A stretch of DNA of 64,000 bases from Thiocapsa bogorovii (GTDB lineage: Bacteria > Pseudomonadota > Gammaproteobacteria > Chromatiales > Chromatiaceae). Where the stretch lies: contig NZ_CP089309.1 of assembly GCF_021228795.1 (NCBI RefSeq), positions 372,001-436,000 of the forward strand. The letters are read 5' to 3'. A program made the translations under genes and the position numbers. Below the pieces are notes generated by a model. That model was not told the DNA's origin, did not search any database, and saw only the letters and a list, made by a program, of their open reading frames with translations. Of the stretch, positions 15,383-42,061 are shown in pieces. The stretch's first letter is position 1. Each line of letters opens with the position of its first letter.

Positions 15383-15575
15383 TAAGCCGCGTCCAGAGCG
15401 AGACGCTCATTTTCGAGCGAGATCGAAGTTTGGCGCATCCACGACCCTTAGCGGAAACGCGGCTTAAAATCATATATTTTTTAATATCTTAAACCGCGCA
15501 AGTTCCAGCATTCGTCGAGTGCTACCGGGGCCAATCCCTTCCCAAAACATCGCGTATCGCGCTGGGCGCGGTTTA
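15383..15575. repeat. Composite palindromic repeat (84 bp module + 86 bp module)
   Basis: The 84 bp module (15383-15466) begins TAAGCCGCGTCCAGAGC and ends ACGCGGCTTA. An AT-rich spacer follows, then the 86 bp module (15490-15575), TAAACCGCGC to GCGCGGTTTA. The last bases contain the TAA stop of the cytochrome gene ending at 15573. Confidence 0.85.
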
Positions 15576-17009
15576 AAGGGTCTTGAGATACTCGAGCAGC
15601 GCCAGACGCTCGGATTCGGTCAGATCGTCGCCGAAGGTGTGGCCCTGATTGCCGTAGCCCGGGAGACCGGTGTCGTAGATGTGGTTGCGCTCCTCCCAGC
15701 TCATGGCGCCGGCCTTGCCGTGGTCCAACGTTCGATAGGCCCAACCTAGACCGACTTCATCATAGAGGGGCCGGTCCTCGCCTTCCCGGTCGAACCGCCA
15801 GAAGGTCGGGCGCGAGCGGCTGTCGAGCAAGGATGCAATCGTCGGCACCGAGCCGTTGTGCAGATAGGGTGCAGTCGCCCAGACCCCGTCGAGCGGCGGT
15901 GCGACATACCCCAGCGCCGGTGCGGCCTGCGAGAGCTGGCCGTAGAAGGATCTTCCGAACCACTTCAGGAAGCGGTCGGCATCGCTGAAACCCTTGCGCG
16001 CGACCTCGGGATCGGTCTCGACCTTGCCGAGCGCAATGACGCGATTGGGATAGGTCGGCTGCTCGCCGTAGGTCCCGTGACACTCCTTACAGGTCTTGTC
16101 GAAGACCGCAGCGCCGCGTTCGGCGAGCGCCCTATCGATGACGAAAGGGTACTCGGGCGGCTGTAGGCTTGCCAGATAGGCACGCACGTCGACGAACCAA
16201 GCATCGATCTCGGCGGCCTCCTCGACAGAATCGGTGCAGGTGGTCGAGGCGAGGATCATGTAGCGGACGTGGTCGCCGCGCCCTTCGCCGTTGTAGAACA
16301 TCGCGTGTTTTTTGCCCATGTTCCACCACGGCGGAACGCTCACCGGCAGCGGGTTCTGCGGCGGCGGCTCGATGAGAGGCGTGTCGGACCAGGCCAGCGT
16401 CTCCGGGTCGCGGTGCGCCATCAAGGCCAGAGTCAGGTTGTTCGCGGAGTTTACGCCGACGGTGTCCGTCATCATGTAGTCGGCGATTGCACCGATCCGA
16501 TCGGCCCAGCGCCGCCACTCCGTCGCTTCGGGTCCGTCATCGACCAGCGCGGCGGACGCCTCGATCCCGATCAAGGGATCGATGGTCAGATCGAGAAACG
16601 CGTTCCCCAGACCCATGATCAGCTCCCCGTTGAAGGTCGACGCATGGCAGGCCAGACAGTTCGAGGTCACGATCTCGACACCCGAGGCGGCCACATGGGA
16701 GGTCAGCATGTACGGCAGCCCGGCATTGCGTCCCGTGCGGCCCGGGAACTGCGGACCCGCATCCTGCGCGGCACCTCGGGTCTTGAGATAGGCGTTGTAA
16801 GGCAGACCACAGGTGACGACCGAGCGGTTGAGGAGCGCATCGTAACCCTTCTCGGGATCCCCCGGACGCTGGGGCGATGCCGGAATCTCCCCGACCTCGG
16901 CCTTGTAGACGCCGTCCTTCTCGGTCGGACCGCGATCGCAGCCGAGCAAGGACAATGTCAGCAGGATCAGCGGGACGTGAATCGACGGATACCGGATATT
17001 AAATAGCAT
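15573..17009 (-). CDS. Di-haem c-type cytochrome lipoprotein
   Basis: 478 residues from the ATG at 17009. A lipoprotein signal with lipobox LSLLGC puts the modified cysteine at residue 24. Haem motifs are CLACH (118-122) and CKECH (about 306-310). The C-terminal part has PLDGVWATAPYLHNGSVPT, typical of di-haem peroxidase-like cytochrome domains. A redox role at the periplasmic face is likely; the substrate is unknown. The stop codon lies inside the adjacent palindromic repeat, and another copy of the same repeat family begins 11 bases upstream of the start. Confidence 0.8.
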   Translation of the reverse strand: MLFNIRYPSIHVPLILLTLSLLGCDRGPTEKDGVYKAEVGEIPASPQRPGDPEKGYDALLNRSVVTCGLPYNAYLKTRGAAQDAGPQFPGRTGRNAGLPYMLTSHVAASGVEIVTSNCLACHASTFNGELIMGLGNAFLDLTIDPLIGIEASAALVDDGPEATEWRRWADRIGAIADYMMTDTVGVNSANNLTLALMAHRDPETLAWSDTPLIEPPPQNPLPVSVPPWWNMGKKHAMFYNGEGRGDHVRYMILASTTCTDSVEEAAEIDAWFVDVRAYLASLQPPEYPFVIDRALAERGAAVFDKTCKECHGTYGEQPTYPNRVIALGKVETDPEVARKGFSDADRFLKWFGRSFYGQLSQAAPALGYVAPPLDGVWATAPYLHNGSVPTIASLLDSRSRPTFWRFDREGEDRPLYDEVGLGWAYRTLDHGKAGAMSWEERNHIYDTGLPGYGNQGHTFGDDLTESERLALLEYLKTL

Positions 17010-17020
17010 AGTGACCCGGT

Positions 17021-17213
17021 TAAACCGCGCCCGGTACGGTATGCGCAATGTGTTGGAGTGGCTTGGCCGCACCGGCTCCGAAGACTCTCGGAGCCGGCGC
17101 GGTTTAACATACTCGAAAATATTAAGTTCTAAACCGCGTCTCACTGGAATCAAGGATATCTCCGAAGCCAAACGCACAATGAAAATGACGCATATCGCTC
17201 TGGACGCGGTTTA
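17021..17213. repeat. Composite palindromic repeat, inverted orientation
   Basis: The 86 bp module (17021-17106) comes first and the 84 bp module (17130-17213) second, so the whole unit is reversed relative to the copy at 15383. The 86 bp module carries an inner hairpin CCGGCTCCGA/TCGGAGCCGG. Module lengths and spacer (23 bp) equal those of the other full copies. Confidence 0.85.
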
Positions 17214-17257
17214 GGATGACCCGGCTGTGATGATCGGGTTCGATTGAAAGGACAAGA

Positions 17258-18424
17258 TCAGATCCCGGACGGCGCAACCACCTCGGCCGTCGTCTCGATC
17301 CGCCCGTGACCGGCGATGGCCTCTTCGCCCAGAAGACCCTCGGCGCGCACCGCACCGCTCCAGAGTCGGACCCTATCGTCAGCCTCTTGATCCCGCGCCA
17401 GAGGGACAAGCTCCAGATCAAGATCCAGGATCGGGATGCTCAACCTCCAAGCCACCGGGTAGCGCGCCCCGCTGCGCGGGCTCAGCCAGTGCTCGACCGG
17501 CTCAAGCCGGATCTCGCGGCGCCGAAAACCCTGCACCCGCCCGTCGGCGAGGATCAAGGCGCAGGCCGGGATGGGTGTACCCGTACCGTCTTCACGGCGC
17601 AACTGGAGACAGACCAGCTCGCGGTCCTGGTCGAGCTGGATCGCGAACCGGTTCAAACCGACCTGCCCCCCGCTCGTCGGCAGCATCCCCCAAGCATGAT
17701 CGAGCCAGACCTGCCCCTTCATCGACCGGGGCTCGCCGTTCAGGGTCAGGGTACCGGCGGCCGCCATGCGCGGAAGCAGATACGCCTGCAGCCCCGACGC
17801 GCCGATATCGCGCCCCAAGAGGCCCAGATCGGCGAAGGCGACCGGGGGCTTCACGGCGACCAGATCCAAGTTCAAGGCCGGCCCCTCGCCCCCCATGACC
17901 AGACGCATCCGCGGCCGGTCCGTTTCGCCGTCGGACAGCGACAGAGACCAGTCCTCGACCCAGACCGACCCGAGCCGCGCGTCGGCTCCGGCAAGTCCAG
18001 AGGCAGCGCGCGTCAACCGCTCAGCCGAATGCACCTCAGGCTCGTCGGCCCGAATCAGCGTGAGTCGACCTCGGAAAACGGCGTTGGCCGCCCAGGCAGA
18101 TGCACGCGGCGGTGGATCCGCAGCGAGCGCAAAACGTGTGATGCCGAGCTGAAAGTCGTAGCGCCGCCCCTCGGCGTCGGTGAGCTGTCCGAACAGATTC
18201 CACAGCTCACCGGGATACTCGGAATGGGCGCCATGATCCGCGGGGAAGTGCAAGGGCTTGTCCTCGACGACGTCGACAACGCCGTCCGCACCTGGATCGA
18301 GATCGAATAGCGCATCCAGCGAAGACCCCGGCAGCGATTCAGGCCCCCGAGACCCGAGCGTCCAGAGGGAAGCGAGGCCCGCGAGCAGAGCCAACAGACC
18401 GATCAAGACCAAAAGAGGCTTCAT
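17258..18424 (-). CDS. AttH/CrtC-like lipocalin-domain protein
   Basis: 388 residues from the ATG at 18424. One N-terminal membrane/signal helix (LLVLIGLLALLAGLASL) precedes a beta-rich protein. The segments LHFPADHGAHSEYPGELWN and WLDHAWG are the hallmarks of the AttH/carotenoid 1,2-hydratase-like lipocalin family. Members are often exported and coupled to lipoprotein or ABC systems; the reaction is not known here. Its start lies seven bases after the M48 peptidase stop, so the two form an operon. Confidence 0.75.
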   Translation of the reverse strand: MKPLLVLIGLLALLAGLASLWTLGSRGPESLPGSSLDALFDLDPGADGVVDVVEDKPLHFPADHGAHSEYPGELWNLFGQLTDAEGRRYDFQLGITRFALAADPPPRASAWAANAVFRGRLTLIRADEPEVHSAERLTRAASGLAGADARLGSVWVEDWSLSLSDGETDRPRMRLVMGGEGPALNLDLVAVKPPVAFADLGLLGRDIGASGLQAYLLPRMAAAGTLTLNGEPRSMKGQVWLDHAWGMLPTSGGQVGLNRFAIQLDQDRELVCLQLRREDGTGTPIPACALILADGRVQGFRRREIRLEPVEHWLSPRSGARYPVAWRLSIPILDLDLELVPLARDQEADDRVRLWSGAVRAEGLLGEEAIAGHGRIETTAEVVAPSGI

Positions 18425-18431
18425 GACCGCA

Positions 18432-19214
18432 TCAACGCCGTGCGGCTTCATATTCAGCGATCGCCTGCGGGAGGAACCGCCGGATCTGCGCGATGCGTGC
18501 ATCGTCGAGCGGATGCGTGCTCAGGAACTCCGGGGTCGAAGTACGGCTGCCCCGGTTTTGTGCCTGAAAGCGCTCCCAGAACCCGACCGCCTCGGTCGGA
18601 TCAAAACCGGCTCGGGCCATATAGAGCAGTCCGACTCGATCGGCCTCGTACTCCTGGGTGCGTGAATACGGAAGCATCACACCGACCTCGGTGCCGACCC
18701 CGTAGGCCTGCATGGCCAGGTCACGGGTGACCGCGGGTTGGCTGCCGAGCGCCGCGGTCAGTGCGGTGCCGCCCAGCTGTACGAGCAGGTCCTGAGACAT
18801 CCGCTCAGCCCCGTGGCGGGCGGTCACATGCGCGATCTCGTGTGCAATCACGGTGGCGAGTCCGGCCTCGGTTTGCGTGATCGGCAAGATGCCGGTGTTG
18901 ACGCCGATCTTGCCGCCGGGCAGCGCGAATGCATTGGGCTCGTCGGACTCGAACAGCACGAACTCCCAGTCCGCATTCGGGATGCTCACGACGCTCGCGA
19001 TGCGCCTGCCGACGGATTGGAGCTCGGCATTCGCGTGTCGGTCTCGCGAGACGGGCGTTTGCTGCTTGATCTTCTGAAACAACTGGAGACCCAGTTGAGC
19101 CTCTTGCGCACTGTCGATCAAGAGGACCTGGCGTCGACCGGTCTCGGGCGCTGTGGCGCAACCGGCAACCGCCGCCAAGATGCAGGACGCGACCAGGAGG
19201 CGATGTAATTGCAA
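18432..19214 (-). CDS. M48-family metallopeptidase lipoprotein
   Basis: About 260 residues. The zinc motif HEIAH is followed by the third ligand region EYEADRVG, as in the M48B (BepA/LoiP-like) group. A signal with lipobox AVAGC is visible. I place the start at TTG 19214, just before the signal helix, since no ATG lies close; an upstream ATG at 19301 would add a long arginine-rich tail. It probably degrades or remodels envelope proteins in the periplasm. It is followed by the AttH-like gene. Confidence 0.8.
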   Translation of the reverse strand: MQLHRLLVASCILAAVAGCATAPETGRRQVLLIDSAQEAQLGLQLFQKIKQQTPVSRDRHANAELQSVGRRIASVVSIPNADWEFVLFESDEPNAFALPGGKIGVNTGILPITQTEAGLATVIAHEIAHVTARHGAERMSQDLLVQLGGTALTAALGSQPAVTRDLAMQAYGVGTEVGVMLPYSRTQEYEADRVGLLYMARAGFDPTEAVGFWERFQAQNRGSRTSTPEFLSTHPLDDARIAQIRRFLPQAIAEYEAARR

Positions 19215-19414
19215 CGACGCGAGCTGCCGCGTCGCCGCAAGCGCACTTCGACGCGGTTGGCGCGTGCGAGGACCGCGGCGCACGCATCGGCCGGACATCC
19301 GGCGGGCTTGCAAGAAGACTCGTGTACGGCTTCGCGATTCCATGTCCGGAGAGTGGGGGCACGCCACTCGGCACACCAGAGGCTCGGCCGAGCGCACTGC
19401 GCATCGGCGCCCGA

Positions 19415-21841
19415 TCAGGTCTCGGGCGCGTCGTAGTAGCTCAGGTCGAGCCAGCCGGCAGAATCGCCGCGGTGCTCGACATTCCAGCGATTGATCCAAT
19501 CGTAGAAGGGCCAAAAAAGCGCGCTGTCGCGCAAGATCCCGTAGCACGAGGCAAACCGACTCCAGTCGTCTTTGCTCTCGACGGCACGCAGATCCGTCAG
19601 GAAGCGGCCCGCATCGGCAAGGTCCAGATCGATGAAGAGGTTCGGGAAGCCGTTGACTAGGGTCGGATAGATACTGAGGGTGTCCTCGTCCGGGAGCGCC
19701 TGGCCGTTTTGAAACACGAGGGTATATTGGGACTTGTAAACGCGGTTCGCCACCAGCGAATAGACCCGATGGCGATCCTGCGCCGCACCCTCTGCACCGT
19801 TTAGTCTCAGCACCAGGACGCTCGGGAGCTGAGGCACGAAGTGCTGACCTTGGACCGCCGTCAGCCTGGAGACGGCCGCTTCCCAGTCGTCGAAGTCCTT
19901 GATCGGCGCATCGACGGCGAGCTCGGGCTTGACTCGAGGGTTGAGCCGATCAGGCAGACCGCTGATGCGCGGTCCCAGGCGGCGAGCGATCTGCTCGACC
20001 AGGTCGACCAGCGGATCCGGCCCGTGAACATCGACCCGGGTCGGCTGGTTTGCGGTCTCGAACGGGATCAGGCTCAGGGCCACCGAGCCGATACCGCGCG
20101 TCCATTGCCGGCGGATCCGCTCGCGTTCCTCAGGCGGCAGCAACCCGAGGAAGCCGTCCTCGAACTCCTGGCGCAGCATGTTGAAGAACAGCAGGGTTTC
20201 GAGCTTCCGCCCGTCGCCGGCCCAGTATTCGAAGCTGGCCACGGTGTCGTAATAGAGCCGCTCGAGGCCGCTGTAGCCCATCAACCAGAAGGTCTGCGGA
20301 AGACCTCCCTGCGCACCCTGAAGCACGGAGACGTTGGTCTCGTGGCGCAGCAGGGTGAGCCATGCGTTGCGGTTTTCGCCCTCGCCGTCCCAGATCGCAT
20401 CGAGTGACCATCCCTCGGGATCGAGCCGTGCCCGAGTCTTGGCATAGGCATCGAGATAGGCCGCGTTGCCGTCGAGCGAACGGTCCATGAAGAGATCCCA
20501 GTCGTCGAGGCCCAAACGGGGATCCCGCACCGAGATGTCGTATGCGGGATCCAGGAAGAAGACCCAGAACTGATCCTTGACCGCGTAGGTCGCGATCTGA
20601 CCGTTGCAGACCGGCCCATAGGTGATCCCGCCGACGATGACCTCGGCATTCTCGAGCAGGAAGCGATAGCGGGACTCGGCAGGGATCGCCGCGAAGACGC
20701 GAAAGGGATTGCCGATATCCCAAGGCGGATCGAGATCCGCATCGGCGGCCCAATCAGGCGACAGAAAAAGATCGGTGAGATCCGCCATGTCGTCCCGCGA
20801 GAGCCGCCAGACGAAGAGGCTCTTCTGCACCGGTGCCGTCGTCACCTTCTGCAGCCTGTACCAGAAGCGCTCGACGCCGGGATCCCCGTAGGGCAGCGCC
20901 GTCGAGATCAGCTCGATCGGCGATCTCTCCACTACCGAGGGACCGGCCCGGCCGTCGTCGAGAATAGGCGCGGGCGGTGTGGCGGATCGCACCAAGCGGA
21001 AACGATCCCCCGGACTGTCTTCGAGAACGATGGTGGCGAGGAAGACGTGCTCGAAGATGAAGCGACTGACCAAGGCTTGGCGGGGATCCGGGCCGTTGAA
21101 GAAGGACTCCCATGCGGCGACGGCCGCCGGGTTGGCGACCTTTTGCGCTCGAGCCTCCTCCGCCTCGGTCGGGCCGGGCGAGCCCTGTGCGATCCAGTCC
21201 CGCAAGATCGCAAAGTCGGCCTTCGCGAGCGCCGGCAGGCCGAAGGGCATCCCCAGACCGGGGTGCTCCTGCAACCTGGCCGCGAGCGCATCGGCGCTCG
21301 ACGGACAGGTCCCCGCAAAGCGCTGCAGCCGAAACGGATCCACGGACGCGCGCGAGAAGCCGGGGTCGTTGTAGCGCATGCCCGCGTCGATCATCCGATA
21401 GAGGATGGAGTCGTCGAGATTGGTCTGCGCCGACGCGGTACGCGCCAGGATGGGGTAGAAGCCGCGCTCGCGCCATTCCGCCGTGGAATCGGCAGCGTCC
21501 ATATCGGTGCGCGGATCCGCGGTCAAACGCGCAGAGTATGGGTTGTGACCAAAGCCGCCGCGGTCGACGCCGCGGAAGGAATCCAGCTTGACGTTGCAGG
21601 GAGAGCCCAGACAGCCGTGGCACGCGATGCAGCGGCGGTCGAAGATGGGTTGGACTTGCGTGCTGTAGTGCGGCGTCTCGGAGCCCACAGACTCGGCCGC
21701 AGCATGGTCTAACGACTCGCGGGCGGTGTCCTGCGGCTCCGCTGCGCGGAGCGGCGAAGCGAGCAGCAGCACCGCGAAGGCGATGGTGAGGGCGACTCGA
21801 GAATGCCGTATCGAGCCTTGGGTTCGTGCGTCAAGGTGCAT
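19415..21841 (-). CDS. cti: Fatty acid cis/trans isomerase
   Basis: 808 residues from the ATG at 21841, preceded by GAGG. A signal peptide (to about residue 33, ending LRA) is followed by one haem motif CIACH (71-75) within CIACHGCLGSPC, the signature of Cti. The length matches the family. Cti is a periplasmic cytochrome c-type enzyme that converts cis-unsaturated acyl chains of membrane lipids to trans during solvent, heat or salt stress. The M48 peptidase lies 200 bases downstream. A cyclopropane synthase, which uses the same acyl double bonds, is encoded at 40604. Confidence 0.9.
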   Translation of the reverse strand: MHLDARTQGSIRHSRVALTIAFAVLLLASPLRAAEPQDTARESLDHAAAESVGSETPHYSTQVQPIFDRRCIACHGCLGSPCNVKLDSFRGVDRGGFGHNPYSARLTADPRTDMDAADSTAEWRERGFYPILARTASAQTNLDDSILYRMIDAGMRYNDPGFSRASVDPFRLQRFAGTCPSSADALAARLQEHPGLGMPFGLPALAKADFAILRDWIAQGSPGPTEAEEARAQKVANPAAVAAWESFFNGPDPRQALVSRFIFEHVFLATIVLEDSPGDRFRLVRSATPPAPILDDGRAGPSVVERSPIELISTALPYGDPGVERFWYRLQKVTTAPVQKSLFVWRLSRDDMADLTDLFLSPDWAADADLDPPWDIGNPFRVFAAIPAESRYRFLLENAEVIVGGITYGPVCNGQIATYAVKDQFWVFFLDPAYDISVRDPRLGLDDWDLFMDRSLDGNAAYLDAYAKTRARLDPEGWSLDAIWDGEGENRNAWLTLLRHETNVSVLQGAQGGLPQTFWLMGYSGLERLYYDTVASFEYWAGDGRKLETLLFFNMLRQEFEDGFLGLLPPEERERIRRQWTRGIGSVALSLIPFETANQPTRVDVHGPDPLVDLVEQIARRLGPRISGLPDRLNPRVKPELAVDAPIKDFDDWEAAVSRLTAVQGQHFVPQLPSVLVLRLNGAEGAAQDRHRVYSLVANRVYKSQYTLVFQNGQALPDEDTLSIYPTLVNGFPNLFIDLDLADAGRFLTDLRAVESKDDWSRFASCYGILRDSALFWPFYDWINRWNVEHRGDSAGWLDLSYYDAPET

Positions 21842-22043
21842 CCGACAAACCTCGCAACGGGTGCCGTCGGAACCCTCGGCTGATGCGACGGGCCGGCGGA
21901 CGGGATCGTGATCAGTGTTTCCGCCGACGGGCACCATGTCGGTGCAGGCCATGCGAGGTGTGCGCTTCGCTGAGCCTATCCGGCCTAAAGACCGGCGAGT
22001 CGAGTACAACCCGCACATCACGGGGCAGGAGTCGCGAAATGGC

Positions 22044-23214
<1,171 letters not shown>

Positions 23215-24345
23215 TTAGAGCCCGATCTTGTCGATGAAGCTCTTCACGCTGTCCAACCAGGAATGCGACTGCGGACTGTGCCGTGAACCGCCCTCCTGCA
23301 CACTGGCCTCGAACTCGCGCAGCAGATCCTTCTGACGCTCGGTGAGGTTCACCGGCGTCTCGACCGTGACGCGACAGATGAGATCACCGATCGCGCCGCC
23401 ACGCACGGGTTTCACCCCCTTGCCGCGCACACGGAACATCTTGCCCGTCTGTGTGCCCGCCGGGATCTTGAGCATCACCTTGCCGTCGAGTGTCGGGACC
23501 TCGAGCTCGCCACCGAGTGCGGCGGTCACGAAACCGATCGGCACCTCGCAGTGCAGATGGCTGTCCTCGCGGGTAAAGATCGGGTGCGCCTTGACCTGGA
23601 TCTGAACATAAAGATCACCGGGCGGTCCTCCGAACTCGCCGCGCTCGCCCTCACCGGCAAGGCGAATCCGGTCGCCGGTATCCACGCCCGCGGGCACGCG
23701 AACCGAGAGGGTCTTCTCCTCCTGGATCCGACCCCGACCCCGACAATGTCCGCAGGCCTCCTCGATGACGGTTCCCGTCCCCCGACAGGTCGGACAGGTT
23801 TGCTGAATCGAGAAGAAGCCCTGCTGCATGCGCACCTGGCCGCTTCCTCCGCAGGTGGTGCAGGTCTTCGGCTTGGTGCCCGGCTTGGCCCCGGTTCCCC
23901 CGCAGAACTGGCAGTCCACCTGAACCGGGATGCGGAACTTGGCCTCCTTGCCGTTGACGGCATCCTCGAGACTGAGCGACAAGTCGTAGCGCAAATCCAC
24001 TCCGCGCTGCGTGCGTCGAGCACCCGAGCGACCGCCGAAGATGTCCCCGAAGACGTCCCCGAAGATATCGGAGAAGGCCCCGCCGTCCCCGCCGGGACCG
24101 CCGAACCCGCCCGCGCCGGCATCCACGCCCGCATGGCCGAACTGGTCGTAGGCCGAGCGCTTCTTCGGATCGCTCAGGACGTCGTACGCCACCTTGGCCT
24201 CTTTGAACTTGGCCTCGGTATCCGCGTCGCCGGTGTTGCGATCCGGGTGATACTTCATCGCCAGGCGGCGGAAGGCCTTCTTGAGGTCGGCCTCGCTCGC
24301 ATTGCGCGAGACGCCCAAGACCTCGTAATAATCGCGTTTTGCCAT
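23215..24345 (-). CDS. dnaJ: Chaperone protein DnaJ
   Basis: 376 residues. The J domain has the HPD motif (YHPDRN), then a Gly/Phe-rich linker. The zinc domain has four repeats: [24 protein letters not shown] and CGHCRGRG. DnaJ delivers unfolded proteins to DnaK and stimulates its ATPase. It is the last heat-shock gene of the hrcA-grpE-dnaK-dnaJ cluster; 320 bases with a decayed repeat separate it from dnaK. Confidence 0.97.
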
Positions 24346-24665
24346 TGAATCCTAAACCGCGTCCAGAGTCATAACCGATGGTGTTCCAGGAACGGCCTCT
24401 TGAGGGTACGAGAGGTCGCGATGCATGACGCGGCTTCGATCGAATCCGAAAACGACGCATACCGCTCCAGACGCGTCTCTACATCGGCCGATTCATGCAA
24501 AGACGAGCCGGTTCGGAAACAGCATTTGCGCCCTCGAAGCGGCGATTCCGCGTCGAGGGCACTGCAGCGTGACCGGTGACGGAGCCGAACATCTTGCCGA
24601 AACCGTCGAGCGCCTGTCGAGACGCGCGCGTCTCGGTCGTGGTTTCGAGCCGTCGGCCGCTTGAT
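24346..24665. other. Intergenic region between dnaK and dnaJ
   Basis: No gene is seen. The dnaJ-proximal half holds a decayed palindromic repeat (24353-24476). I see no clear promoter or terminator in the remainder. Confidence 0.5.
24353..24476. repeat. Decayed palindromic repeat
   Basis: It begins like the 84 bp module (TAAACCGCGTCCAGAGTC) and ends with ACGACGCATACCGCTCCAGACGCG, but it has extra interior sequence and has lost the closing GGTTTA. Confidence 0.5.
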
Positions 24666-26615
<1,950 letters not shown>

Positions 26616-26689: not shown

Positions 26690-26695
26690 CCGATA

Positions 26696-31439: not shown

Positions 31440-31444
31440 TCTGC

Positions 31445-31479: not shown

Positions 31480-31518
31480 ACATCCACCGACACAGAGCCA
31501 CATTGAGGGGAGCAGGTC

Positions 31519-32748: not shown

Positions 32749-33555
32749 GGGGTTGTGCTTCTTGGACCGCCTCGCGTAGCGGTGATGACCCCCAACCGAT
32801 CGGGCGATGAGACCGACAACAGACACATTGACTCAGGGCATCCGCGGCCGGTGTGGAGAACCCTTGTTCCGGCTATACCGGTGGCGCACGGGAGAATCCC
32901 TGCACGGGCATTCCGCGCGCCGATCCCTGCTTTTAGAGAAAGGCCAGCTCCGCGACGCAGTGAAGTCCGGTGGTACCCAATCCACGTATATCAGCATGAT
33001 CCACCGTCGCAGTCTGCCGCCGGGTGTCCTGAGCCAATGTGTTTGCACCGACGATACCGTCGGCCTATGGATATGTGGACGAGTCCGCATCCCTGCGGAC
33101 CGGCCCGAGCTAAAGCCGTATGGACAACCCATGGACCGCGCCGAGGCCTCGGCGCAAGACGCCAGCATCGCGCAGGCGCGGCCCACAGGTTGCCCACACT
33201 CTCGGGCCTCTCGCCCACATACCCACAGGCCCTGCAACAGATTGCTGAACAGTAGAAAGAAGAGGTGCACTACGAGAAACCAGTGCCGATAGTTGACAGG
33301 TCAAAACATATGAGCTGGTTGATTTTGGATAAGGTGCAAACTGCCACGTGAAAGGCGAAGGTTGCGAGGATCGCCGTATGCGGGTGATCGACTCCGGTCG
33401 CCCGCCAGCACACGGGAAGCGCGATGGCTCGAACTTTTGCGTGTCGAGTCGCCGCTAAAGCACCTTTTTAGAGCCTTGGCCTCGATCCACGGACGATCCG
33501 CTCTTCGCTGCCCGCCTTTCACCTTATTTCCGACAAAGAATTCAGGAGTAGACGC
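32749..33555. other. 807-base non-coding stretch, probable right end of the IS110 element
   Basis: No gene is recognisable; open frames on both strands (up to 161 codons) lack any family feature. The part next to the transposase is the likely place of the element end and of a guide RNA gene, but the right boundary cannot be fixed because this family leaves no target duplication. The last 100 bases must contain the promoter and ribosome site (CAGGAG near 33541) of the epimerase gene. Confidence 0.5.
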
Positions 33556-34563
33556 ATGAAAGTCATGGTGACCGGCAGCGCCGGTTTTATCGGCTCGGCC
33601 CTGTCCCTACGCCTCCTCGACCGCGGCGACGCGGTGATCGGAATCGATAATCTGAACGACTACTACGACGTCGCGCTGAAGGAGGCACGACTTGCCCGCA
33701 CGCTCTCCTTCGAAGGCTTCCGCGACGAGCGCGTCGACATCGAGGACGGTGCACGCATGCGCGAGCTCTTTGCCATGCACCGCCCGAACCGGGTCGTGCA
33801 CCTCGCCGCGCAGGCCGGCGTGCGCTACTCCATCGAAAACCCGATGGCCTACGTCAACACCAACCTGGTCGGCTTCGGGCACATCCTGGAAGGCTGTCGA
33901 GATGTCGGCGTCGAGCATCTGGTCTATGCCTCGAGCAGCTCGGTCTACGGCGCCAACACCTCCATGCCCTTCTCGATCCATCACAACGTCGATCACCCCT
34001 TGAGCCTCTATGCCGCCAGCAAGAAGGCCAACGAGCTCATGGCCCACACCTACAGCCACCTGTATCGGATCCCCACCACCGGCCTGCGCTTCTTCACCGT
34101 CTATGGTCCCTGGGGACGGCCCGACATGGCGCTCTTCAAGTTCACCCGCGCCATCCTCGCCGGCGAGCCGATCGACGTCTTCAACTACGGCAAACACCGT
34201 CGTGACTTCACCTTCGTCGACGACATCGTGGAAGGGGTCATCCGCGTCCTGGACCGAGTGCCGAGCGGCGATCCGAGCTGGTCCGGCGCACAGCCCGATC
34301 CCGCCACGAGTCAGGCGCCCTATCGCATTTACAACATCGGCAACAACAAGCCGGTTGAGCTGATGGACTACATCGGCTTCCTCGAGGAGGCACTCGGCCG
34401 CAAGGCCCAGCTCAACCTGCTGCCCCTGCAACCCGGCGATGTTCCCGACACCTATGCCGACGTGACGGATCTGGTGCACGACACCGGCTATTGCCCGGAT
34501 ACGCCGGTCGCGGAGGGCGTGGCGCGGTTCGTGGAGTGGTATCGGGGGTTCTACCGGATCTAA
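33556..34563 (+). CDS. UDP-glucuronate 4-epimerase-type NAD-dependent epimerase
   Basis: 335 residues of the extended SDR family. The Rossmann motif TGSAGFIGS is at residues 6-14, the [13 protein letters not shown] segment is typical of UDP-glucuronate/UDP-galacturonate epimerases, and the catalytic YAASKKANE is present. The product feeds capsule or LPS synthesis. It stands alone, without other polysaccharide genes nearby. Its TAA stop is the first three bases of a composite palindromic repeat. Confidence 0.88.
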
Positions 34564-34753
34564 ACCGCGTCCAGAGCGAGATGCTCACTTTCGCGTGAAT
34601 TCGACGTTGGGTGCATCCACGGCTCTTAGCGGAGACGCGGTTTAGAATTTTATATTTTTTAATACCTTGAACCGCGCCGACTCCGACACTTATCGGAGCC
34701 GGCGCGGCCAAGCCAATTCAACACACTACGCAAACCGCGCTGGGCGCGGTTTA
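34561..34753. repeat. Composite palindromic repeat (84 + 86 bp)
   Basis: 84 bp module 34561-34644, AT-rich spacer of 23 bp, 86 bp module 34668-34753 with the inner hairpin around CTCCGACACTTATCGGAG. The order is the same as at 15383. The first TAA is the epimerase stop. Confidence 0.85.
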
Positions 34754-34887
34754 CGTGATTCTTTTTTGTTCGGGCACGGCGCCGGGAAGGCCGCCTGGCG
34801 TCACCCTGGATTCTACGAGAGAAGACAGCCACGCAGGACCTCCGCAGACACTGCCGCGCCGACAGGCTCGATTCGAGGATCCAACCC

Positions 34888-36090
34888 ATGCCCCGTGTGC
34901 CCAAGATCGACATGGCCGAGGTCACCCGCCTCACCCGTGAAGGGCGGCTTCAAGAGGCGATGGGGTTGCTGCGCGGTGCAACGCTCGATGCGCCCGGATC
35001 GGACGGCGGGCGCACAGGCTCGGCGCCCGATTCCGATCGCGACCCGAGCGCCGAAGAGCATTCGGCCGAGCATCGGAGTATCCCCGGAATGCCGGAGATC
35101 CCGCCGGCGCTGCGCGGACTGCTGGATCGAATGAAGCAACGTGTCGGCGAGCACATCCCCGGGCGGATCGCCCGACCGCCGATCGCACCCGAGCCGGCGG
35201 CTCTTCCGGAGGGGGCCCGATTCGAGGAGCATCTCTATTCCGACGCGGCGGGCACGCTCGTCTACAAGCTCTACATCCCGAGCGGCTACCACAAGCAACC
35301 GTTGCCTTTGGTGGTGATGCTGCACGGATGCAACCAGTCGCCCGACGACTTTGCCGCGGGAACCCGCATGAACAGCCTGGCCGAGCAGGAGTTGTTCCTG
35401 GTCGCCTATCCGGCGCAATCACTCTCGACCAGCGCAACCAAATGCTGGAGCTGGTTCAACCCCGAAGACCAGCAGCGCGGTCGCGGCGAGCCTGCGCTGA
35501 TCGCGGGCATCACCCGCGAGATCATGCGCGATTACGCTGTGGATCCCGATCGCGTCTACATCGCCGGACTCTCCGCAGGGGGTGCTGCCGCATCGATCAT
35601 GGGGGCCACTTACCCGGACCTCTACGCCGCCATCGGAGTGCACTCAGGACTGGCTTACGGCGCGGCCGACGACATGGCATCGGCACTCGCGGCGATGCAT
35701 CAGGGCGGAATGCCCACATCCTTCGCGGATCAGCGATACCGCGGATCCGACGGCACGGCGCCCTTGGTCCCGACCATCGTCTTCCACGGTGATTCCGACA
35801 GCACGGTCAACCCGGTCAACGCCGATCAGGTCATCGCCGCTTCTCCGGGGGTCGCGCAGTTACGTGAATCGCGCATTCCGGGTGAATCGGCCGGGGGAAT
35901 CCGCTACACCCGCAGCCTCTACACCGACGAGAACGGTCGCGCGCCGCTGGAGCAGTGGATCCTGCACGGCGCAGGCCATGCTTGGTCGGGGGGCAGCCCC
36001 GACGGCTCCTATACCGAGCCCCGAGGATCAGACGCAAGCCGGGAAATGCTGCGGTTCTTCATGCAGCACGCCCGCAGCGCCGCAGCCTGA
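34888..36090 (+). CDS. PHB depolymerase-family esterase
   Basis: 400 residues, alpha/beta-hydrolase. The oxyanion segment LHGCNQSPDDFA and the lipase box GLSAGG (Ser near residue 229) match the poly(3-hydroxybutyrate) depolymerase/feruloyl esterase group; the catalytic His lies in GAGHAWSGG. The first 100 residues are low-complexity and charged, and no signal peptide is seen, so it is probably intracellular and could act on storage polyester, which purple bacteria make; that link is inference. The stop codon lies within a 26 bp perfect hairpin. Confidence 0.85.
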   Translation: MPRVPKIDMAEVTRLTREGRLQEAMGLLRGATLDAPGSDGGRTGSAPDSDRDPSAEEHSAEHRSIPGMPEIPPALRGLLDRMKQRVGEHIPGRIARPPIAPEPAALPEGARFEEHLYSDAAGTLVYKLYIPSGYHKQPLPLVVMLHGCNQSPDDFAAGTRMNSLAEQELFLVAYPAQSLSTSATKCWSWFNPEDQQRGRGEPALIAGITREIMRDYAVDPDRVYIAGLSAGGAAASIMGATYPDLYAAIGVHSGLAYGAADDMASALAAMHQGGMPTSFADQRYRGSDGTAPLVPTIVFHGDSDSTVNPVNADQVIAASPGVAQLRESRIPGESAGGIRYTRSLYTDENGRAPLEQWILHGAGHAWSGGSPDGSYTEPRGSDASREMLRFFMQHARSAAA

Positions 36091-36124
36091 GCGCAACCGC
36101 GCTCAGGCTGCGGCGCTGCGGGCG
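36069..36124. terminator. Very strong hairpin at the esterase 3' end
   Basis: The 26-base arms (36069-36094 and 36099-36124) are perfect complements with an AACC loop. The left arm is inside the coding sequence and spans the stop codon. No T-tract follows directly. It could end transcription or protect the mRNA 3' end. Confidence 0.7.
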
Positions 36125-36268
36125 ATTGGAATAGACCTTTTGCGGCACGAACCGGACCAGCTTATGCCGCCGGTGATCAGCGGTCGGTTTTCGGCGATCG
36201 GAAGGAACGAATTCCCTTGCCCCGGACTGTGCTTCTGCCGAGCCGTGCGAGGCACAAAGTGCTCTTCC

Positions 36269-36352
36269 TAAACCGCGTTCCCGCTGAGCGCCGTGGATGC
36301 ACCAAACGTCGAACTCACGCCAAAGTGAGCATCTGGCTCTGGACGCGGTTTA
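36269..36352. repeat. 84 bp palindromic repeat, single module
   Basis: TAAACCGCGTTCC to GGACGCGGTTTA, in the orientation opposite to the copy at 38867. It ends four bases before the rdgC stop. Confidence 0.85.
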
Positions 36353-36355
36353 GGT

Positions 36356-37351
36356 TCACTCGACCCACGGCGGCGGCTCCGCCGACGAAGGTGCGCTCAC
36401 CGCGGGCGCCGTTTCGGTCTGCGGAACCGGAGCCGGCGTGCCCCCTGCATCCTCGTCGCCGACGAGGCCGAAGATCGCGTCCAGCCGTGCGATCAACTCG
36501 CGCAGTTGCAGTGAGAGGATGGCGAGCTCGGCGTCCATGCGCGCCGCGGGCTCGAGGTCGCCGTCGTCGAGCTCGTTGAGCAGGGCATCGCCCACGCGCA
36601 GGCGTTTCAGCGACATGTCCTCGGCCAAGACGAAATCGAGCCGCTCGTCCCAGCTCAGAGCCAGCTTCAGCACCTGCTTGCCGACACGCAGATGGGCGAG
36701 GATCTCTTCGCTGCCGAGATCCTGTCCGCGACAGCGGATCAGGCTCGCCGTGTCGCTGACGTCGCGTAGCTCGCAGGCATCCCCGATCTGAAAATCACTC
36801 GGCGCATCGCCGTTCAGCAACCAACCGGTCATCACCTTAGGCGGCTCCATCCGAGGAGCAGGGGGACGGGCCGGAAGGGTCTCGATGGTCTCGCGCAACA
36901 GCGAGATCACCTCCTCGGCCTGCCGATCGCTCCCGGAGTCCACCACGAGCCAACCCGCCTCGGTGTCGACATAAAGTAGCGTGCGGCGTGAGCGTGTAAA
37001 GGCCCGCGGGAGCATTTCGGCCATGATCTGCTCGCGCAATCGACGTCGTTCGGCACGGCCCACGTCGCGAGCCTCCGCCGTCTCGAGATCGTTCACACGC
37101 TCCTCGAGGGCCTCGGCGACCGCGGCCGAGGGGAGCAGGCGCTCCTGCTTGCGCGCGCAGATCAGGAAACAGCCCGAGACCGCATGAACCAAGGCCGTCG
37201 AGCCATCGCCGAGCGGCGCAGACCAGCCCATCGTCGCAGTCTCGAGGGGACCGCAGGGCCGAAAACGACGCTCGTCGAGACGGGTCTCGAGTGCGTCGGC
37301 ATCCAGACCGAACGGGCGTCCCAGTCGATACAGTCGTACATTCTTGAACAT
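36356..37351 (-). CDS. rdgC: Recombination-associated protein RdgC
   Basis: 331 residues. The start MFKNVRLYRL and the segment CGPLETATMGWSAPLG are characteristic. RdgC forms a ring around double-stranded DNA and limits RecA loading; it is found on the nucleoid. The C-terminal tail is proline- and alanine-rich and longer than in E. coli. It is convergent with the esterase gene, with a hairpin and an 84 bp repeat between them. Confidence 0.93.
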   Translation of the reverse strand: MFKNVRLYRLGRPFGLDADALETRLDERRFRPCGPLETATMGWSAPLGDGSTALVHAVSGCFLICARKQERLLPSAAVAEALEERVNDLETAEARDVGRAERRRLREQIMAEMLPRAFTRSRRTLLYVDTEAGWLVVDSGSDRQAEEVISLLRETIETLPARPPAPRMEPPKVMTGWLLNGDAPSDFQIGDACELRDVSDTASLIRCRGQDLGSEEILAHLRVGKQVLKLALSWDERLDFVLAEDMSLKRLRVGDALLNELDDGDLEPAARMDAELAILSLQLRELIARLDAIFGLVGDEDAGGTPAPVPQTETAPAVSAPSSAEPPPWVE

Positions 37352-37549
37352 TTTCAGCCCCGGTCAAAAAGGCCGGGATTATGACCGAGCCTCGCCGAAC
37401 TGCAAGCGCCGGGGCGTGCTGTCGGCGCAACGGGTCGCCAATCCGCGCAAGCGACCGGGATGGCGATGGAGGTCGGAATGCGGGTGCACACCGACCCGAA
37501 AACACGGATTCACAACGCGCCCGGCATGCCGTGTTGAAGCCGGTATACT

Positions 37550-38869
37550 GTGTCCCAGATCGACCCATCGCCAAGCTCGGAATCCAAGGTGGATGAACTC
37601 TCGTTACCCGGCCTGTTTCTCGCGTTGCTCCTGTTGCTCATGCTCTCGGGCTTCTTCTCCGGATCGGAGACGGCCCTGCTCACCATCAACCGCTACAAGC
37701 TCAAACACCTGGCGGACGGCGGTCACCGGGGCGCCCGCATGGCGCGCGCGCTGTTGGAGAGACCCGACCGCTTGATCGGGCTCATCCTGCTCGGGAACAA
37801 CTTCGTCAACATCATGGCATCCTCCCTGGCGACCATCATCGCCTTGCGTCTCGGTGGCGAGGCAGCGATCGGAATCGCCGCCGGGCTCTTGACCCTGGTC
37901 ATCCTGATCTTCGCCGAGGTCGCGCCCAAGACCTATGCCACGCTGCATCCGGAGCGCCTCGCCTTTCCGGCGGCCTACGTCTACAAGCCGCTCCTCAAGC
38001 TGCTCTATCCGATCGTCTGGTTCGTCAATCTCTTCACCAACGGTCTGCTCCGGCTGATGGGGATCACGCCGGAAGGCGCACCGGGCACGGCGCTGAGCCG
38101 CGAGGAGCTACGGACCGTGGTCAGCGAAGCCGGTGCCATGATCCCCGAGCGCAGCCGCTCCATGCTGCTCGGCATCTTGGATCTCGAGCGCGCCACGGTC
38201 GAGGACATCATGATCCCGCGCAACGAGGTGGAAGGGATCGACATCCAGGACAGCGAAGACGAGATCCTGCACGCCATCGGCAACTCCAGCTACACGCGGA
38301 TGCCGCTCTTCGACGGCAGCATCGACAATGTGATCGGCGTCTTCCACGCCAAGCATGCCCTGCATGCACTCCTCGAGCAGGGCCTGGGCAAGGAGCATCT
38401 GCGTGCGATCGCGCGCGAGCCCTACTATGTCCCCGAAGGCACGCCGCTCTACCAGCAGCTACTCAATTTCCAGCGCGGGAAGCGGCGCGTCGGTCTGGTG
38501 GTCGACGAATACGGCGATTTTCTCGGACTCATCACACTGACCGATCTGCTCGAAGAGATCGTCGGGGAGTTCACGACCGACCCGGCGGACAGCATCCCGG
38601 AGATCCATCGCGCCGAAGACGGCAGCCTCTTGGTCGACGGCAGCATCACCGTGCGCGATCTCAACCGGGCGCTGCGCTGGACACTTCCCACCGACGGCCC
38701 CCGAACGTTGAACGGGCTGATCCTCGAATACCTCGAGACCATCCCCGAGCCCGGTACCAGTCTCAAGCTGCACGATCACCCGATCGAGATCCTGCAAACG
38801 GCGGACAACGGGGTGAAGACCGTGAAGGTCGTCACCCGTCCGGCCCGCAAGGCGCGGACGCTCGTTTAA
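37550..38869 (+). CDS. HlyC/CorC-family transporter (DUF21 + CBS + CorC_HlyC)
   Basis: Up to 439 residues. The N-terminal DUF21 membrane domain (SGFFSGSETALLTINRYKL) has about four membrane segments, followed by two CBS domains (MIPRNEVEGIDI; LVVDEYGDFLGLITLTDLLE) and a C-terminal transporter-associated domain. The organisation is that of YfjD/CorB, implicated in magnesium or cobalt efflux. The GTG at 37550 is the longest start; GTG 37589 just before DELSLPG is also plausible. Its TAA stop begins an 84 bp repeat. Confidence 0.9.
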   Translation: MSQIDPSPSSESKVDELSLPGLFLALLLLLMLSGFFSGSETALLTINRYKLKHLADGGHRGARMARALLERPDRLIGLILLGNNFVNIMASSLATIIALRLGGEAAIGIAAGLLTLVILIFAEVAPKTYATLHPERLAFPAAYVYKPLLKLLYPIVWFVNLFTNGLLRLMGITPEGAPGTALSREELRTVVSEAGAMIPERSRSMLLGILDLERATVEDIMIPRNEVEGIDIQDSEDEILHAIGNSSYTRMPLFDGSIDNVIGVFHAKHALHALLEQGLGKEHLRAIAREPYYVPEGTPLYQQLLNFQRGKRRVGLVVDEYGDFLGLITLTDLLEEIVGEFTTDPADSIPEIHRAEDGSLLVDGSITVRDLNRALRWTLPTDGPRTLNGLILEYLETIPEPGTSLKLHDHPIEILQTADNGVKTVKVVTRPARKARTLV

Positions 38870-38950
38870 ACCGCGTCCAGAGCGAGATGCTCACTGTCGA
38901 GTGAGCTCAAGTTACGGTGCATCCACTGCCCTTAGCGGGGACGCGGTTTA
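38867..38950. repeat. 84 bp palindromic repeat, single module
   Basis: TAAACCGCGTCCAGAGC to GGGGACGCGGTTTA. Its first bases are the stop codon of the CorC-like gene, and its end lies six bases before the radA stop on the other strand. Confidence 0.88.
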
Positions 38951-38956
38951 ATCGCC

Positions 38957-40318
38957 TCAGACCCCGTCGAGGGCCTCGGCGAGGGTCTTCACGGCCGTGA
39001 TCTCCAACCCATCCACACCCTCTTTGGGAACATTCCCGACCGGTACGATGGCCCGACGCACACCGTGCTTGGCTGCCTCGCGTAACCGATCCGGACCATT
39101 CGGGACCGGACGCACCTCGCCCGAGAGGCCGACCTCGCCGAAGACCGCGAGGTCCAACGGAAGCGGCCGGTCCCGATAGCTCGACAGCACCGCCATCACG
39201 AGCGGCAGATCGACGGCGGTCTCGGTGATCCGCACCCCGCCGACCACGTTGACGAAGACATCCTGGTTGAACATGGCCACCCCGCCGTGACGGTGCAGCA
39301 CCGCCAGCAGCATCGACAGGCGGTTGCCGTCGAGCCCCAAGGCCACCCGTCGCGGATTGGCGAGCGGGCTCTCGTCCACCAGCGCCTGCACCTCGACCAA
39401 GAGCGGGCGCGTCCCCTCGCGGGTCACCATGACCAGACTGCCCGGGACCGCCTCGTCGTGGCGAGAAAGAAAGATCGCGGAGGGGTTCTTCACCTCGCGC
39501 AGGCCGCGGTCGCCCATCGCGAAGACCCCGAGCTCATGCACCGCGCCGAAGCGATTCTTCACCGAGCGCACCAGGCGAAAGGCGCCGCCGGGCTCGCCCT
39601 CGAAATAGAGCACGGTGTCGACCATGTGCTCCAACACTCGCGGTCCGGCGAGCGTGCCGTCCTTGGTCACATGGCCGACGAGGAAGACCACCGTATCCCG
39701 CTGCTTGGCGAATCGGACCAGCTGCGCCGCCGCCTCGCGCACCTGCGAGACAGAGCCGGGGGCAGACTGCAGCGCATCGGTATAGAGGGTCTGGATGGAA
39801 TCGACGACCAGCACCCGCGGCCGTTCCTGCGACGCGGCCGCGAGGATCGACTCGACGTTGGTCTCGGCAAGCAGACGGATGCCCTCGCCCGCCAGTCCGA
39901 GCCGATGGGCGCGTAGCCCGATCTGCTGGGGCGACTCCTCGCCGCTGACATAGAGCACCGGCAGGTGGCGTGCAAGCGAGGCACTCGCCTGCAGCAAGAG
40001 GGTCGACTTGCCGATCCCCGGATCCCCGCCGATCAAGACCACCGAGCCCGTCACCAGGCCGCCGCCCAACACGCGATCGAGCTCGCCGATCCCGCTCTGG
40101 ATGCGCACCCGATCTTCGGGGCTGACCTCGGCCAAGCTCTCCACGCGCGGTGACTCGGCCGCGCCCGCGTAGCCGCCGCGCACGGCGGGACGTGCGATCT
40201 CCGCGGTCTCCACCATGCTGTTCCAGGCCCCGCAGTCCGGGCACTGACCCGCCCACTTCGGCTGACGCGCACCGCAGGCGTTGCAGACATAGCTGCTGCG
40301 GGTCTTTCGGTTGCTCAT
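38957..40318 (-). CDS. radA: DNA repair protein RadA
   Basis: 453 residues. The N-terminal zinc finger is CNACG...CPDCG; Walker A is GGDPGIGKSTLL; the RadA motif KNRFG is present, followed by a Lon-protease-like C-terminal domain. RadA speeds branch migration in recombination. The gene is convergent with the CorC-like gene across an 84 bp repeat. Confidence 0.96.
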   Translation of the reverse strand: MSNRKTRSSYVCNACGARQPKWAGQCPDCGAWNSMVETAEIARPAVRGGYAGAAESPRVESLAEVSPEDRVRIQSGIGELDRVLGGGLVTGSVVLIGGDPGIGKSTLLLQASASLARHLPVLYVSGEESPQQIGLRAHRLGLAGEGIRLLAETNVESILAAASQERPRVLVVDSIQTLYTDALQSAPGSVSQVREAAAQLVRFAKQRDTVVFLVGHVTKDGTLAGPRVLEHMVDTVLYFEGEPGGAFRLVRSVKNRFGAVHELGVFAMGDRGLREVKNPSAIFLSRHDEAVPGSLVMVTREGTRPLLVEVQALVDESPLANPRRVALGLDGNRLSMLLAVLHRHGGVAMFNQDVFVNVVGGVRITETAVDLPLVMAVLSSYRDRPLPLDLAVFGEVGLSGEVRPVPNGPDRLREAAKHGVRRAIVPVGNVPKEGVDGLEITAVKTLAEALDGV

Positions 40319-40603
40319 CTGAGAGGTCCGTTCGGATCAATGCACACGCGCCATTGTAGGCCGATTCGGCTCGGCGAAGCCGTAGACGGGTTGACCGTCC
40401 GGCGCGCTCGGGGTGAAACGGCCCCGAGCCGATCTCACCTCCGCGCGCTGCGCCGTTCGGAAGCGCTCTTCGCGATCCTGTTCGCCCGGCACGACCCTTG
40501 ACCGAAACCCTCCCGAACACTACTTTTTTCCACGTAAAGACTTTGAATTCCCCGTCCTTTACACGTCGGCGGCAACGCCCGACCAAGCGCGAGGATATGC
40601 AAC

Positions 40604-41872
40604 ATGAAGTCTGACAAGAACCCATTATCGAACGGCGCCGCATCGGTCGATCGGGGCACATGGACAGACACCGACAGCGTATGGCCGATAGAGACCTGGC
40701 TGTTCAATCGATTCATGCAGCTCATCGGGGAACCCGCCATCAGCGTCGTCTTCTGGGATGACCGGGAGCACTACCGGTGTCCTCGGGCCAACCCGGTCGC
40801 ACGCATGCGCTTCGCCGACCGATCCACCTTTTGGCGACTCTTCGCCAATCCGAACCTGGAGTTCGGGGACGGCTACAGCTCGGGGCGCATACGCATCGAG
40901 GGGGACTTGGTCGCCTTCATCGAAGCGCTCTACGAGGCCAAGATCAAGCGGACCCGGCCCGGCATCCTCCAGCAGTTCGTCAAGCGGGGATTCGTCCGAG
41001 CGCGACGCAACAGCCTCACGGATTCGCGAGACAACATCCAACATCACTACGATCTGGGAAACGACTTCTATCGACTCTGGCTCGACGAAGAGATGGCCTA
41101 CACCTGCGCCTATTTCGCCGATCCGAGCGTCACCCTCGAGCAGGCCCAGGCCGCGAAGCTCGACCATATCGCGCGCAAGTTACAGCTGCGACCCGGCGAG
41201 GAGGTGGTCGAGGCCGGCTGCGGTTGGGGCGGCCTTGCACGGCACTTTGCGCGTCGTTACGGCGTTAGAGTCCGGGCCTACAACATCTCGCCCTCGCAGA
41301 TCGCCTATGCGCGCGAACGGGCGAAGGCCGAGGGGCTGGCCGACCGGATCGACTATATCGAGGACGACTACCGCAATATCCAAGGGACCTACGATGCCTT
41401 CGTCTCGGTCGGCATGCTCGAGCATGTCGGTGCCGAGCACTACGCGACCTTGGGCCAGGTTGTCGATCGCGTCCTCAAGGACGACGGACGCGGCCTGATC
41501 CATTCGATCGGCCAAATCCGCCCCGAGCCGCCCAGCGCCTGGAACGAACGGCGTATCTTCCCCGGGGCCAACCCTCCGACGCTGCGCCGGATGATGGACA
41601 TCTTCGAGGGTCCGGGTCTCTCGGTGGTCGACGTGGAGAACATCCGACTCCACTACGCCAAGACGATCGAGCATTGGCTGGCCCGTTACGAGGCCCATGA
41701 GGCGGAGGTCCGCGAGATGTTCGACGACTTCTTCGTCCGGGCGTGGCGGCTCTATCTGGCAGCGTCGATAGCCAGCTTCCGCGCCGGCGCTTTGGAGCTC
41801 TATCAGGTTCTATTCTCTCGCCCGGGAAAGAACGACATGGCCTGGACACGTGCTCACCTCTATCGGGATTAA
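40604..41872 (+). CDS. cfa: Cyclopropane-fatty-acyl-phospholipid synthase
   Basis: 422 residues. The SAM-binding motif VVEAGCGWGGLARHFA and the preceding NIQHHYDLGNDFYRLWLDE, with the C-terminal RRIFPGANPPTLRRMM, are diagnostic of CFA synthase. It adds a methylene group to acyl double bonds of membrane phospholipids, and so competes with Cti encoded at 19415. The stop TAA is shared with a composite repeat. Confidence 0.95.
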   Translation: MKSDKNPLSNGAASVDRGTWTDTDSVWPIETWLFNRFMQLIGEPAISVVFWDDREHYRCPRANPVARMRFADRSTFWRLFANPNLEFGDGYSSGRIRIEGDLVAFIEALYEAKIKRTRPGILQQFVKRGFVRARRNSLTDSRDNIQHHYDLGNDFYRLWLDEEMAYTCAYFADPSVTLEQAQAAKLDHIARKLQLRPGEEVVEAGCGWGGLARHFARRYGVRVRAYNISPSQIAYARERAKAEGLADRIDYIEDDYRNIQGTYDAFVSVGMLEHVGAEHYATLGQVVDRVLKDDGRGLIHSIGQIRPEPPSAWNERRIFPGANPPTLRRMMDIFEGPGLSVVDVENIRLHYAKTIEHWLARYEAHEAEVREMFDDFFVRAWRLYLAASIASFRAGALELYQVLFSRPGKNDMAWTRAHLYRD

Positions 41873-42061
41873 ACCGCGTCCAGAGCGGCACGCGTCGTTT
41901 TCGCTGTGCGTTTGGCTTCGGAGATATTCTCGATCCCTGTGAGACGCGGTTTAAAATTTCAGATTTTGAATGCCTTAAACCGCGCCAACTCCGAGAGCCG
42001 TCGGAGCCGGTCCGGCCAAATCACTCCAACAAACGACGCATATCGCAATGGGCGCGGTTTA
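41870..42061. repeat. Composite palindromic repeat (84 + 86 bp)
   Basis: 84 bp module 41870-41953 and 86 bp module 41976-42061, same order as at 15383 and 34561; spacer 22 bp. The first TAA is the cfa stop codon. Confidence 0.85.

Follow-up and report, generated by a model that had tools for sequence, protein, structure and literature searches.

Here, we describe a family of short palindromic repeats in a 64-kb stretch of a Thiocapsa (Chromatiaceae) genome of 5.65 Mb in a single contig (positions 372001-436000; this whole stretch is called the window, and positions below count from its first base). With a probability of roughly 0.9, the repeats form a family of miniature inverted-repeat transposable elements (MITEs) of the IS630/Tc1-mariner type in purple sulfur bacteria, because they duplicate a TA, lie in a YTAR target and have terminal repeats in common with an element encoding an IS630 transposase. 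The unit consists of a module A, an A+T-rich spacer of 22-23 bp and an inverted relative of A, module B; it measures about 192 bp when paired and about 85 bp when single, and carries no transposase gene. Four features of IS630-type MITEs were thus found together, namely a short gene-less multicopy element, the duplication of TA, terminal repeats shared with IS630 elements, and a transposase encoded between such ends. What sets the family apart from the IS630-type MITEs already known is its pairing of modules, its deletion derivatives and its fit to stop codons.

With at most one mismatch, the end motif TAAACCGCG matched the window 38 times, against 9.9 matches expected and a highest value of 17 in 100 shuffles. 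A detector asking for two ends near TAAACCGCG that pair over 11 bases with no more than two mismatches and are spaced 78-94 bp returned 12 palindromic modules in eight clusters, and none in the reversed sequence. The two-module palindromic family proposed in a first-pass annotation is therefore real, and it was recovered at every coordinate named there bar that of a partial copy. The A-spacer-B units were as described at 15383 (A of the A1 subtype, 84 bp, ends TAAGCC/GGCTTA, 15383..15466; conserved A+T-rich spacer, 23 bp, 15467..15489; B, 86 bp, 15490..15575), at 34561 (A1, 34561..34644; spacer, 23 bp, 34645..34667; B of the inner-hairpin subtype, 86 bp, 34668..34753) and at 41870 (A of the A2 subtype, 41870..41953; spacer, 22 bp, 41954..41975; B, 86 bp, 41976..42061), all on the plus strand. 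The unit at 17021 turned out to be inverted, reading B (17021..17106), spacer (23 bp, 17107..17129) and A (A2, 17130..17213) along the plus strand, its three parts being assigned to the minus strand; of the solitary A modules, the one at 36269..36352 (A1, minus strand) is inverted too, and the one at 38867..38950 lies on the plus strand.

Two larger samples were used for the anatomy of the modules. The own-genome sample of 464 kb comprises the window and four 100-kb stretches placed where motif matches are dense, so that its module density is an overestimate; it held 87 modules (control 0), 79 of them 84-86 bp long and the remainder 81-93 bp, and the fixed lengths of 84 and 86 bp claimed before hold in this looser form. 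The pooled sample of 2.09 Mb comprises the window and the fetched loci from L050 upwards, overlapping loci being kept in, identical clusters counted once and orthologous copies separately. It yielded 405 modules in 277 clusters, with 150 single clusters (94 A, 42 B and 14 mixed) and 128 adjacent pairs, 103 of which show A followed by B in a fixed orientation. The spacer is 22 or 23 bp long in 104 of the 128 pairs, and 100 A-B spacers average 85% A+T, as anticipated from the window; its sequence is conserved as well. When the length was freed to 40-400 bp, on loci mostly fetched by motif, single modules peaked at 83-87 bp and pairs at 190-194 bp. The two modules are inversely related, their outer 30 bp being identical at 21-24 positions in the four units of the window, and the model of A matches its partner on the opposite strand with equal spacing even in another genus (G159). 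Among 45 A or 45 B sequences, hand-chosen for diversity, the common structure is confined to the outer 10 base pairs; an interpretation as RNA genes was rejected for lack of a common inner structure.

The insertion itself is seen best at 17021-17213. Here genome G004 has a single TA (...cccggt-TA-ggatg...) where the window has a 191-bp insertion and two copies of TA (17021..17022 and 17212..17213), with flanks aligned up to the edge. The paired unit was thus inserted whole, which bears out the earlier suggestion of mobilisation as a unit. At 41870, genome G008 lacks the unit and shows TG in place of the TA of the filled copies; its flanks are exact against the copy in G004, and 14 bases remain unaligned against the window's own right flank. 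Near-empty sites with three or four unmatched bases were found at G010 20915 (against G001), G002 19540 (against G010) and L277:15811 (against G002). The exact empty site and the near-empty ones at 41870, G010 20915, G002 19540, L277:15811 and L302:5839 all belong to pairs, and among the sister-species comparisons no solitary module was seen opposite a clean empty site. The unit at L302:5839-6030 has GGTAACC in both flanks, of which G002 and G010, lacking the unit, have one partial copy; this was possibly a second event at that site. The site at 38867 was dropped as a test of the TA duplication, since G010 reads CTAAGG against CTA[AACC...GGTT]TAAGG in G001 and the right side agrees over only about four bases.

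The duplicated TA is flanked by Y and R, giving the target YTAR, in 269 of the 277 pooled clusters and in 61 of the 64 clusters of the own-genome sample, where the targets are TTAA (26), CTAG (19), CTAA (8), TTAG (8) and others (3). In contrast to these flanks, the bases beside noncoding TA are evenly used. IS630 itself reportedly prefers CTAG, as Tenzen and Ohtsubo are said to have described in 1991.

A search for DDE_3 domains in 11 genomes of the genus gave 48 matches, and 30 loci were fetched (L232-L261). Only L242, from genome G006, is bounded by TA and inverted repeats that start like module A; its 1277-bp element (L242:1371-2647) encodes a transposase of 293 amino acids, which matches the NCBIfam IS630 equivalog NF033545 at 155.2 bits (cut-off 100) and carries DDE_3 plus HTH_33. 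For 27 of the other 29 loci, the best match to the module end has 8-10 mismatches in 24 bases; L241 has seven in 24 and no TAAACC start, and the end at L243, with four mismatches in 24 beside a DDE_3 fragment, is a decayed B-spacer-A unit and was rejected as an end of an insertion sequence (IS). The L242 element sits at a stop codon, its terminal repeat providing the TAA that ends an upstream frame of 447 amino acids (L242:30-1373).

Relatives of this transposase occur in seven of 146 Chromatiaceae genomes, a sample that could not include G006, and none was found in the six Thiocapsa genomes listed within it. Each of the 15 relative loci fetched has an end starting with TAAACC, 2-9 mismatches in 26 bases away from the module end (at most seven in 13 of the 15); several of these loci represent one element, as copies or fragments. 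The sequence of these ends is TAAACC.CGTCCAGAGCGGGATGCGTAATTTTCAT or a variant diverged from it. Compared with the 35-base consensus of A2, ends assigned as right agree at 24-30 positions (the best, L282, at 30 of 35), left ends at 23-25 and an uncertain end in L286 at 22. As a control, applied to three right ends and not to the left ones, 207 TAA sites of the window outside modules reached at most 21, 17 and 21. Both modules thus have common ends that one enzyme could use, as had been suggested, with features of the IS630 family and its DDE transposases and not of the REPIN/RAYT system proposed for them. We identify the parent family as IS630-type, and movement of the units was probably due to a transposase of this type; the enzyme that moved the copies of this genome was not found among its searched genes. 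An abundant repeat of purple sulfur bacteria is thereby placed in a known transposon superfamily, with a plausible transposase family to go with it.

The solitary modules can be traced to pairs. At 15383, whose orthologous site was found in G001, G002, G004 and G010, the complete A-spacer-B unit is present in the window, G004 and G002, only A in G001 and only B in G010, each half being cut at internal direct repeats, of which CGCGGTTTA lies at the 3' end of either module and TAAACCGCG at the 5' end. Read from these alignments, the site demonstrates deletion between direct repeats that leaves a solitary A or a solitary B. At 38867, the window holds A alone against pairs in G001, G003 and G004, and spacer and B were probably lost there by deletion; a further candidate is L277:17179, a pair in the window's genome and G004 and a single 85-bp module in G010. 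It is the pair that is mobile and not the single module, because the paired unit was inserted whole and singles arise by deletion, and the independent common terminators named in the first-pass annotation as the alternative do not agree with this. One two-module element thus gives rise to three classes of repeats (pair, A alone, B alone), which could mislead repeat annotation.

The clusters are further distinguished by their position relative to genes. Genes were called with a purpose-made codon-usage scorer (363 genes, 78-83% coding). In the own-genome sample, 27 of the 64 clusters have one end that coincides exactly with a called gene's stop codon. The corresponding proportions are 94 of 1549 for noncoding TA sites and 53 of 371 for empty noncoding YTAR sites (odds ratio over the latter 4.4, Fisher 1.8e-6); insertions are thus enriched at stop codons over noncoding YTAR sites, and none of the 64 clusters falls within a called gene. 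In this sample, 22 of 69 TAA and 5 of 244 TGA stops are formed by module ends, shares inflated by the choice of dense stretches, as are 4 of 12 TAA stops in the window alone. Among the latter clusters, the outer end of B at 15490..15575 is the TAA of the minus-strand gene 15573-17009, while the TAA of A terminates the upstream gene 33556-34563 at 34561, gene 37589-38869 at 38867 and gene 40715-41872 at 41870; the solitary A at 36269 and the stop codon of a minus-strand gene are 3 bp apart. At 41870 and 38867, a relative without the unit has its stop at the identical place, and at 41870 this is a TGA in G002 and G008.

A mechanism can be proposed from these observations. An IS630-family transposase would bind the outer ends and move the paired unit of about 192 bp in trans by cut and paste, inserting it at the TA of YTAR and duplicating this TA. 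The inserted element, Y-TA-[AACC...GGTT]-TA-R, reads TAA from both sides: where the target TA is that of a TAA or TAG stop, which YTAR includes, the A with which the element begins completes a new TAA, whichever strand the gene lies on. A rebuilt TAA would leave the gene product unchanged and so allow the insertion to survive, which may be the reason for the stop-codon bias. Deletion between internal direct repeats would then turn the pair into a solitary A or B. Less firmly, the stem of a resident unit may be kept as a 3'-end hairpin because the outermost base pair changes symmetrically. This pair is the duplicated target and is not carried by transposition, yet TG..CA occurs in 21 clusters (window 23126-23211 among them) against 16 with one-sided TG, orthologous copies being counted separately. 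The own-genome table of the outermost pair reads 6, 1, 2 and 55 (Fisher 2.5e-6), and the detector's rule of at most two mismatches between the ends favours symmetric cases; with the complementarity rule removed, TG/TG stood at 38 against 18 one-sided cases, about 100 of the 571 pairs being expected by chance (control 105). One old site reads TG/TG, TG/TG, TG/TA, CA/TG and TA/TG in five species, where the symmetry may be ancestral and decaying. The symmetric pair suggests either kept pairing or templated repair of the palindrome. A TG target for the TG..CA ends was rejected, since it would give TG and not CA at the right end. All 12 modules of the window have more stable folds than shuffled sequences, whichever strand is taken (z -2.3 to -6.9), a stability that would largely be given by the palindromic ends alone.

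The unit may even be a stop-codon docking device, which would insert in TAA or TAG, rebuild TAA on both strands and serve, or be tolerated, as a 3'-end hairpin with its pairing under selection; this goes beyond the assignment to the IS630-type MITEs and stays short of even odds. If it were so, roughly one in three TAA stops of the stretches sampled would be a transposon end, and the massing of short elements at gene ends would find a reason in a target rule that contains stops together with ends that rebuild them. It is also possible, if rather doubtful, that the bias reflects nothing but target preference and the purging of harmful insertions, the element having no special fit. Preference alone does lift the expected share, from the proportion among noncoding TA sites to that among YTAR sites, but the observed share is still about three times the latter, and the sequence of the ends by itself rebuilds TAA on both strands. 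The folding, the symmetric outermost pair, the location at gene 3' ends and the absence of clusters from genes would equally suit ancient structured elements of 3' untranslated regions, which would act as bidirectional terminators or stabilise mRNAs, be maintained by selection and spread by recombination only. Such elements are nevertheless an improbable explanation in view of their presence and absence between sister species with duplication of TA, of a conserved structure that does not reach inwards, and of 105 copies of one 17-base end in this genome with at most one mismatch (control 2); selection on the hairpin after insertion is compatible with MITEs as well.

The complementary ends of each module and the 150 single clusters would also allow A and B to be two independent MITEs that came side by side by chance, and a single module (G004 13821-13905) does face an imprecise gap in G001 with six bases unaligned, at a site where G002 and G010 hold pairs. 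Against the common order and orientation of most adjacent pairs, their conserved spacer, the exact and near-empty sites that belong to pairs, and the single A and single B that form complementary halves of one ancestral pair, we consider this very improbable. REPINs are inverted pairs of palindromic units, found in high copy number between genes. This likeness, together with 17 Y1_Tnp matches in the genome (14 above the cut-off), speaks for elements moved by a RAYT, a Y1 tyrosine transposase, as the first-pass annotation had it. To our knowledge, no TA duplication is known for REPIN/RAYT, an enzyme class other than that of IS630, and the duplication, the YTAR target and the ends common to IS630 elements make this origin hardly credible. 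A RAYT gene flanked by a repeat had been expected; at none of the 10 of 17 Y1 loci fetched (L040-L049) is the gene flanked on both sides, nine are free of modules out to 1.5 kb, and at the tenth, L041, a diverged one lies at a distance of about 1.3 kb. One of these loci, L046, holds one exact unpaired TAAACCGCG. The Thiocapsa modules, each about 85 bp long with a single long-range stem, are also larger than repetitive extragenic palindromes (REPs), whose units measure 20-40 bp (PMC3733652).

Several points weigh against the assignment to IS630-type MITEs and the stop-codon fit and have to be set beside the evidence above. The sites at 41870, 34561, 23126 and 38867 (orthologs L200-L205) hold different or inverted modules across Thiocapsa species, and differing modules at one stop-codon site need repeated insertion or replacement. 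At a single empty site every base agrees; the others are off by at least one. IS and module resemble each other clearly over no more than about the outer 35 bp, and 18 of the 48 DDE_3 matches of the genus lie outside the fetched set. In the window's own genome, none of the four DDE_3 loci has module-like ends, and a protein search gave no match at 1e-20. The abundance of IS and MITE is uncoupled, G006 having the IS and a single match to the A model, and a transposase beside an abundant MITE population was seen only as broken copies (G159). The gene caller is simple, and an insertion ahead of a stop codon could pass for one at the stop.

The nearest known relative in kind is RUP, a small non-coding MITE with IS630-like terminal repeats and a TA target that goes with IS630-Spn1 (PMC2229807, PMC3049150), and like the Thiocapsa family in these respects. 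RUP is one A+T-rich unit of 107 bp in 108-110 copies, with a proposed preference for IS elements and not for stops, whereas the Thiocapsa family has two palindromic modules and a spacer, deletion derivatives and the stop bias. TA is duplicated likewise by IS630 and the Tc1/mariner element ISY100 (PMC2170065), which are autonomous; the target of the Thiocapsa family is YTAR. MITEPsy1 of Pseudomonas syringae, a 100-bp MITE inserted at CTAG or YTAA, differs in its 4-bp duplication, its proposed parent ISPsy2 (marked 'IS5?') and its six copies (PMC3189936). A literature search that left most subscription papers outside gave no description of an IS630-type MITE in stop codons or of a Thiocapsa MITE. 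Nezha of cyanobacteria and the Correia elements of Neisseria are further bacterial MITEs of the TA type, for which we know of no pairing of modules and no stop-codon bias.

The family is spread through most Thiocapsa genomes examined. The 17-base motif, with at most one mismatch, occurs in nine of the 10 other genomes of the genus examined (1 to 366 matches each) and in two of 24 further genera sampled from the family; none was found in 21 genomes from other families. The models of A and B gave at least 135-151 matches per genome in eight of 11 genomes of the genus and 0-9 in the other three, and at least 145 matches to the A model were counted in each of G159 (L286, L306, L316) and G028 (L305), representing two other Chromatiaceae genera. 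Among the matches listed, the exact motif TAAACCGCGTCCAGAGC lies mainly in Thiocapsa, with Thiobaca, Thiocystis and one Chromatiaceae metagenome-assembled genome; exact matches in Mesorhizobium (L108) and Heliobacterium (L126) were put down to chance, the detector finding no module there. An Rfam scan of the window at the gathering score gave one tRNA and no other family match, and in a megablast of window positions 14600-18000 against plasmids, the best 20 of 153 records match at a tRNA only.

The remaining copies in the window are diverged or truncated. The module at 23126..23211 (minus strand, 86 bp) has the ends TGAACC/GGTTCA, and its site is also filled in G002, G004 and G010, while G008 holds a B-type module there. 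An A-like module of 85 bp with a decayed right end lies at 24353..24437 (plus strand), a site filled in G002, G008 and G010. The partial copy at 60343..60402 (minus strand) is real, being the outer part of a truncated module B that aligns with the B at 17021 at 46 of 60 bases, against 31 of 60 for the second-best position of that strand.

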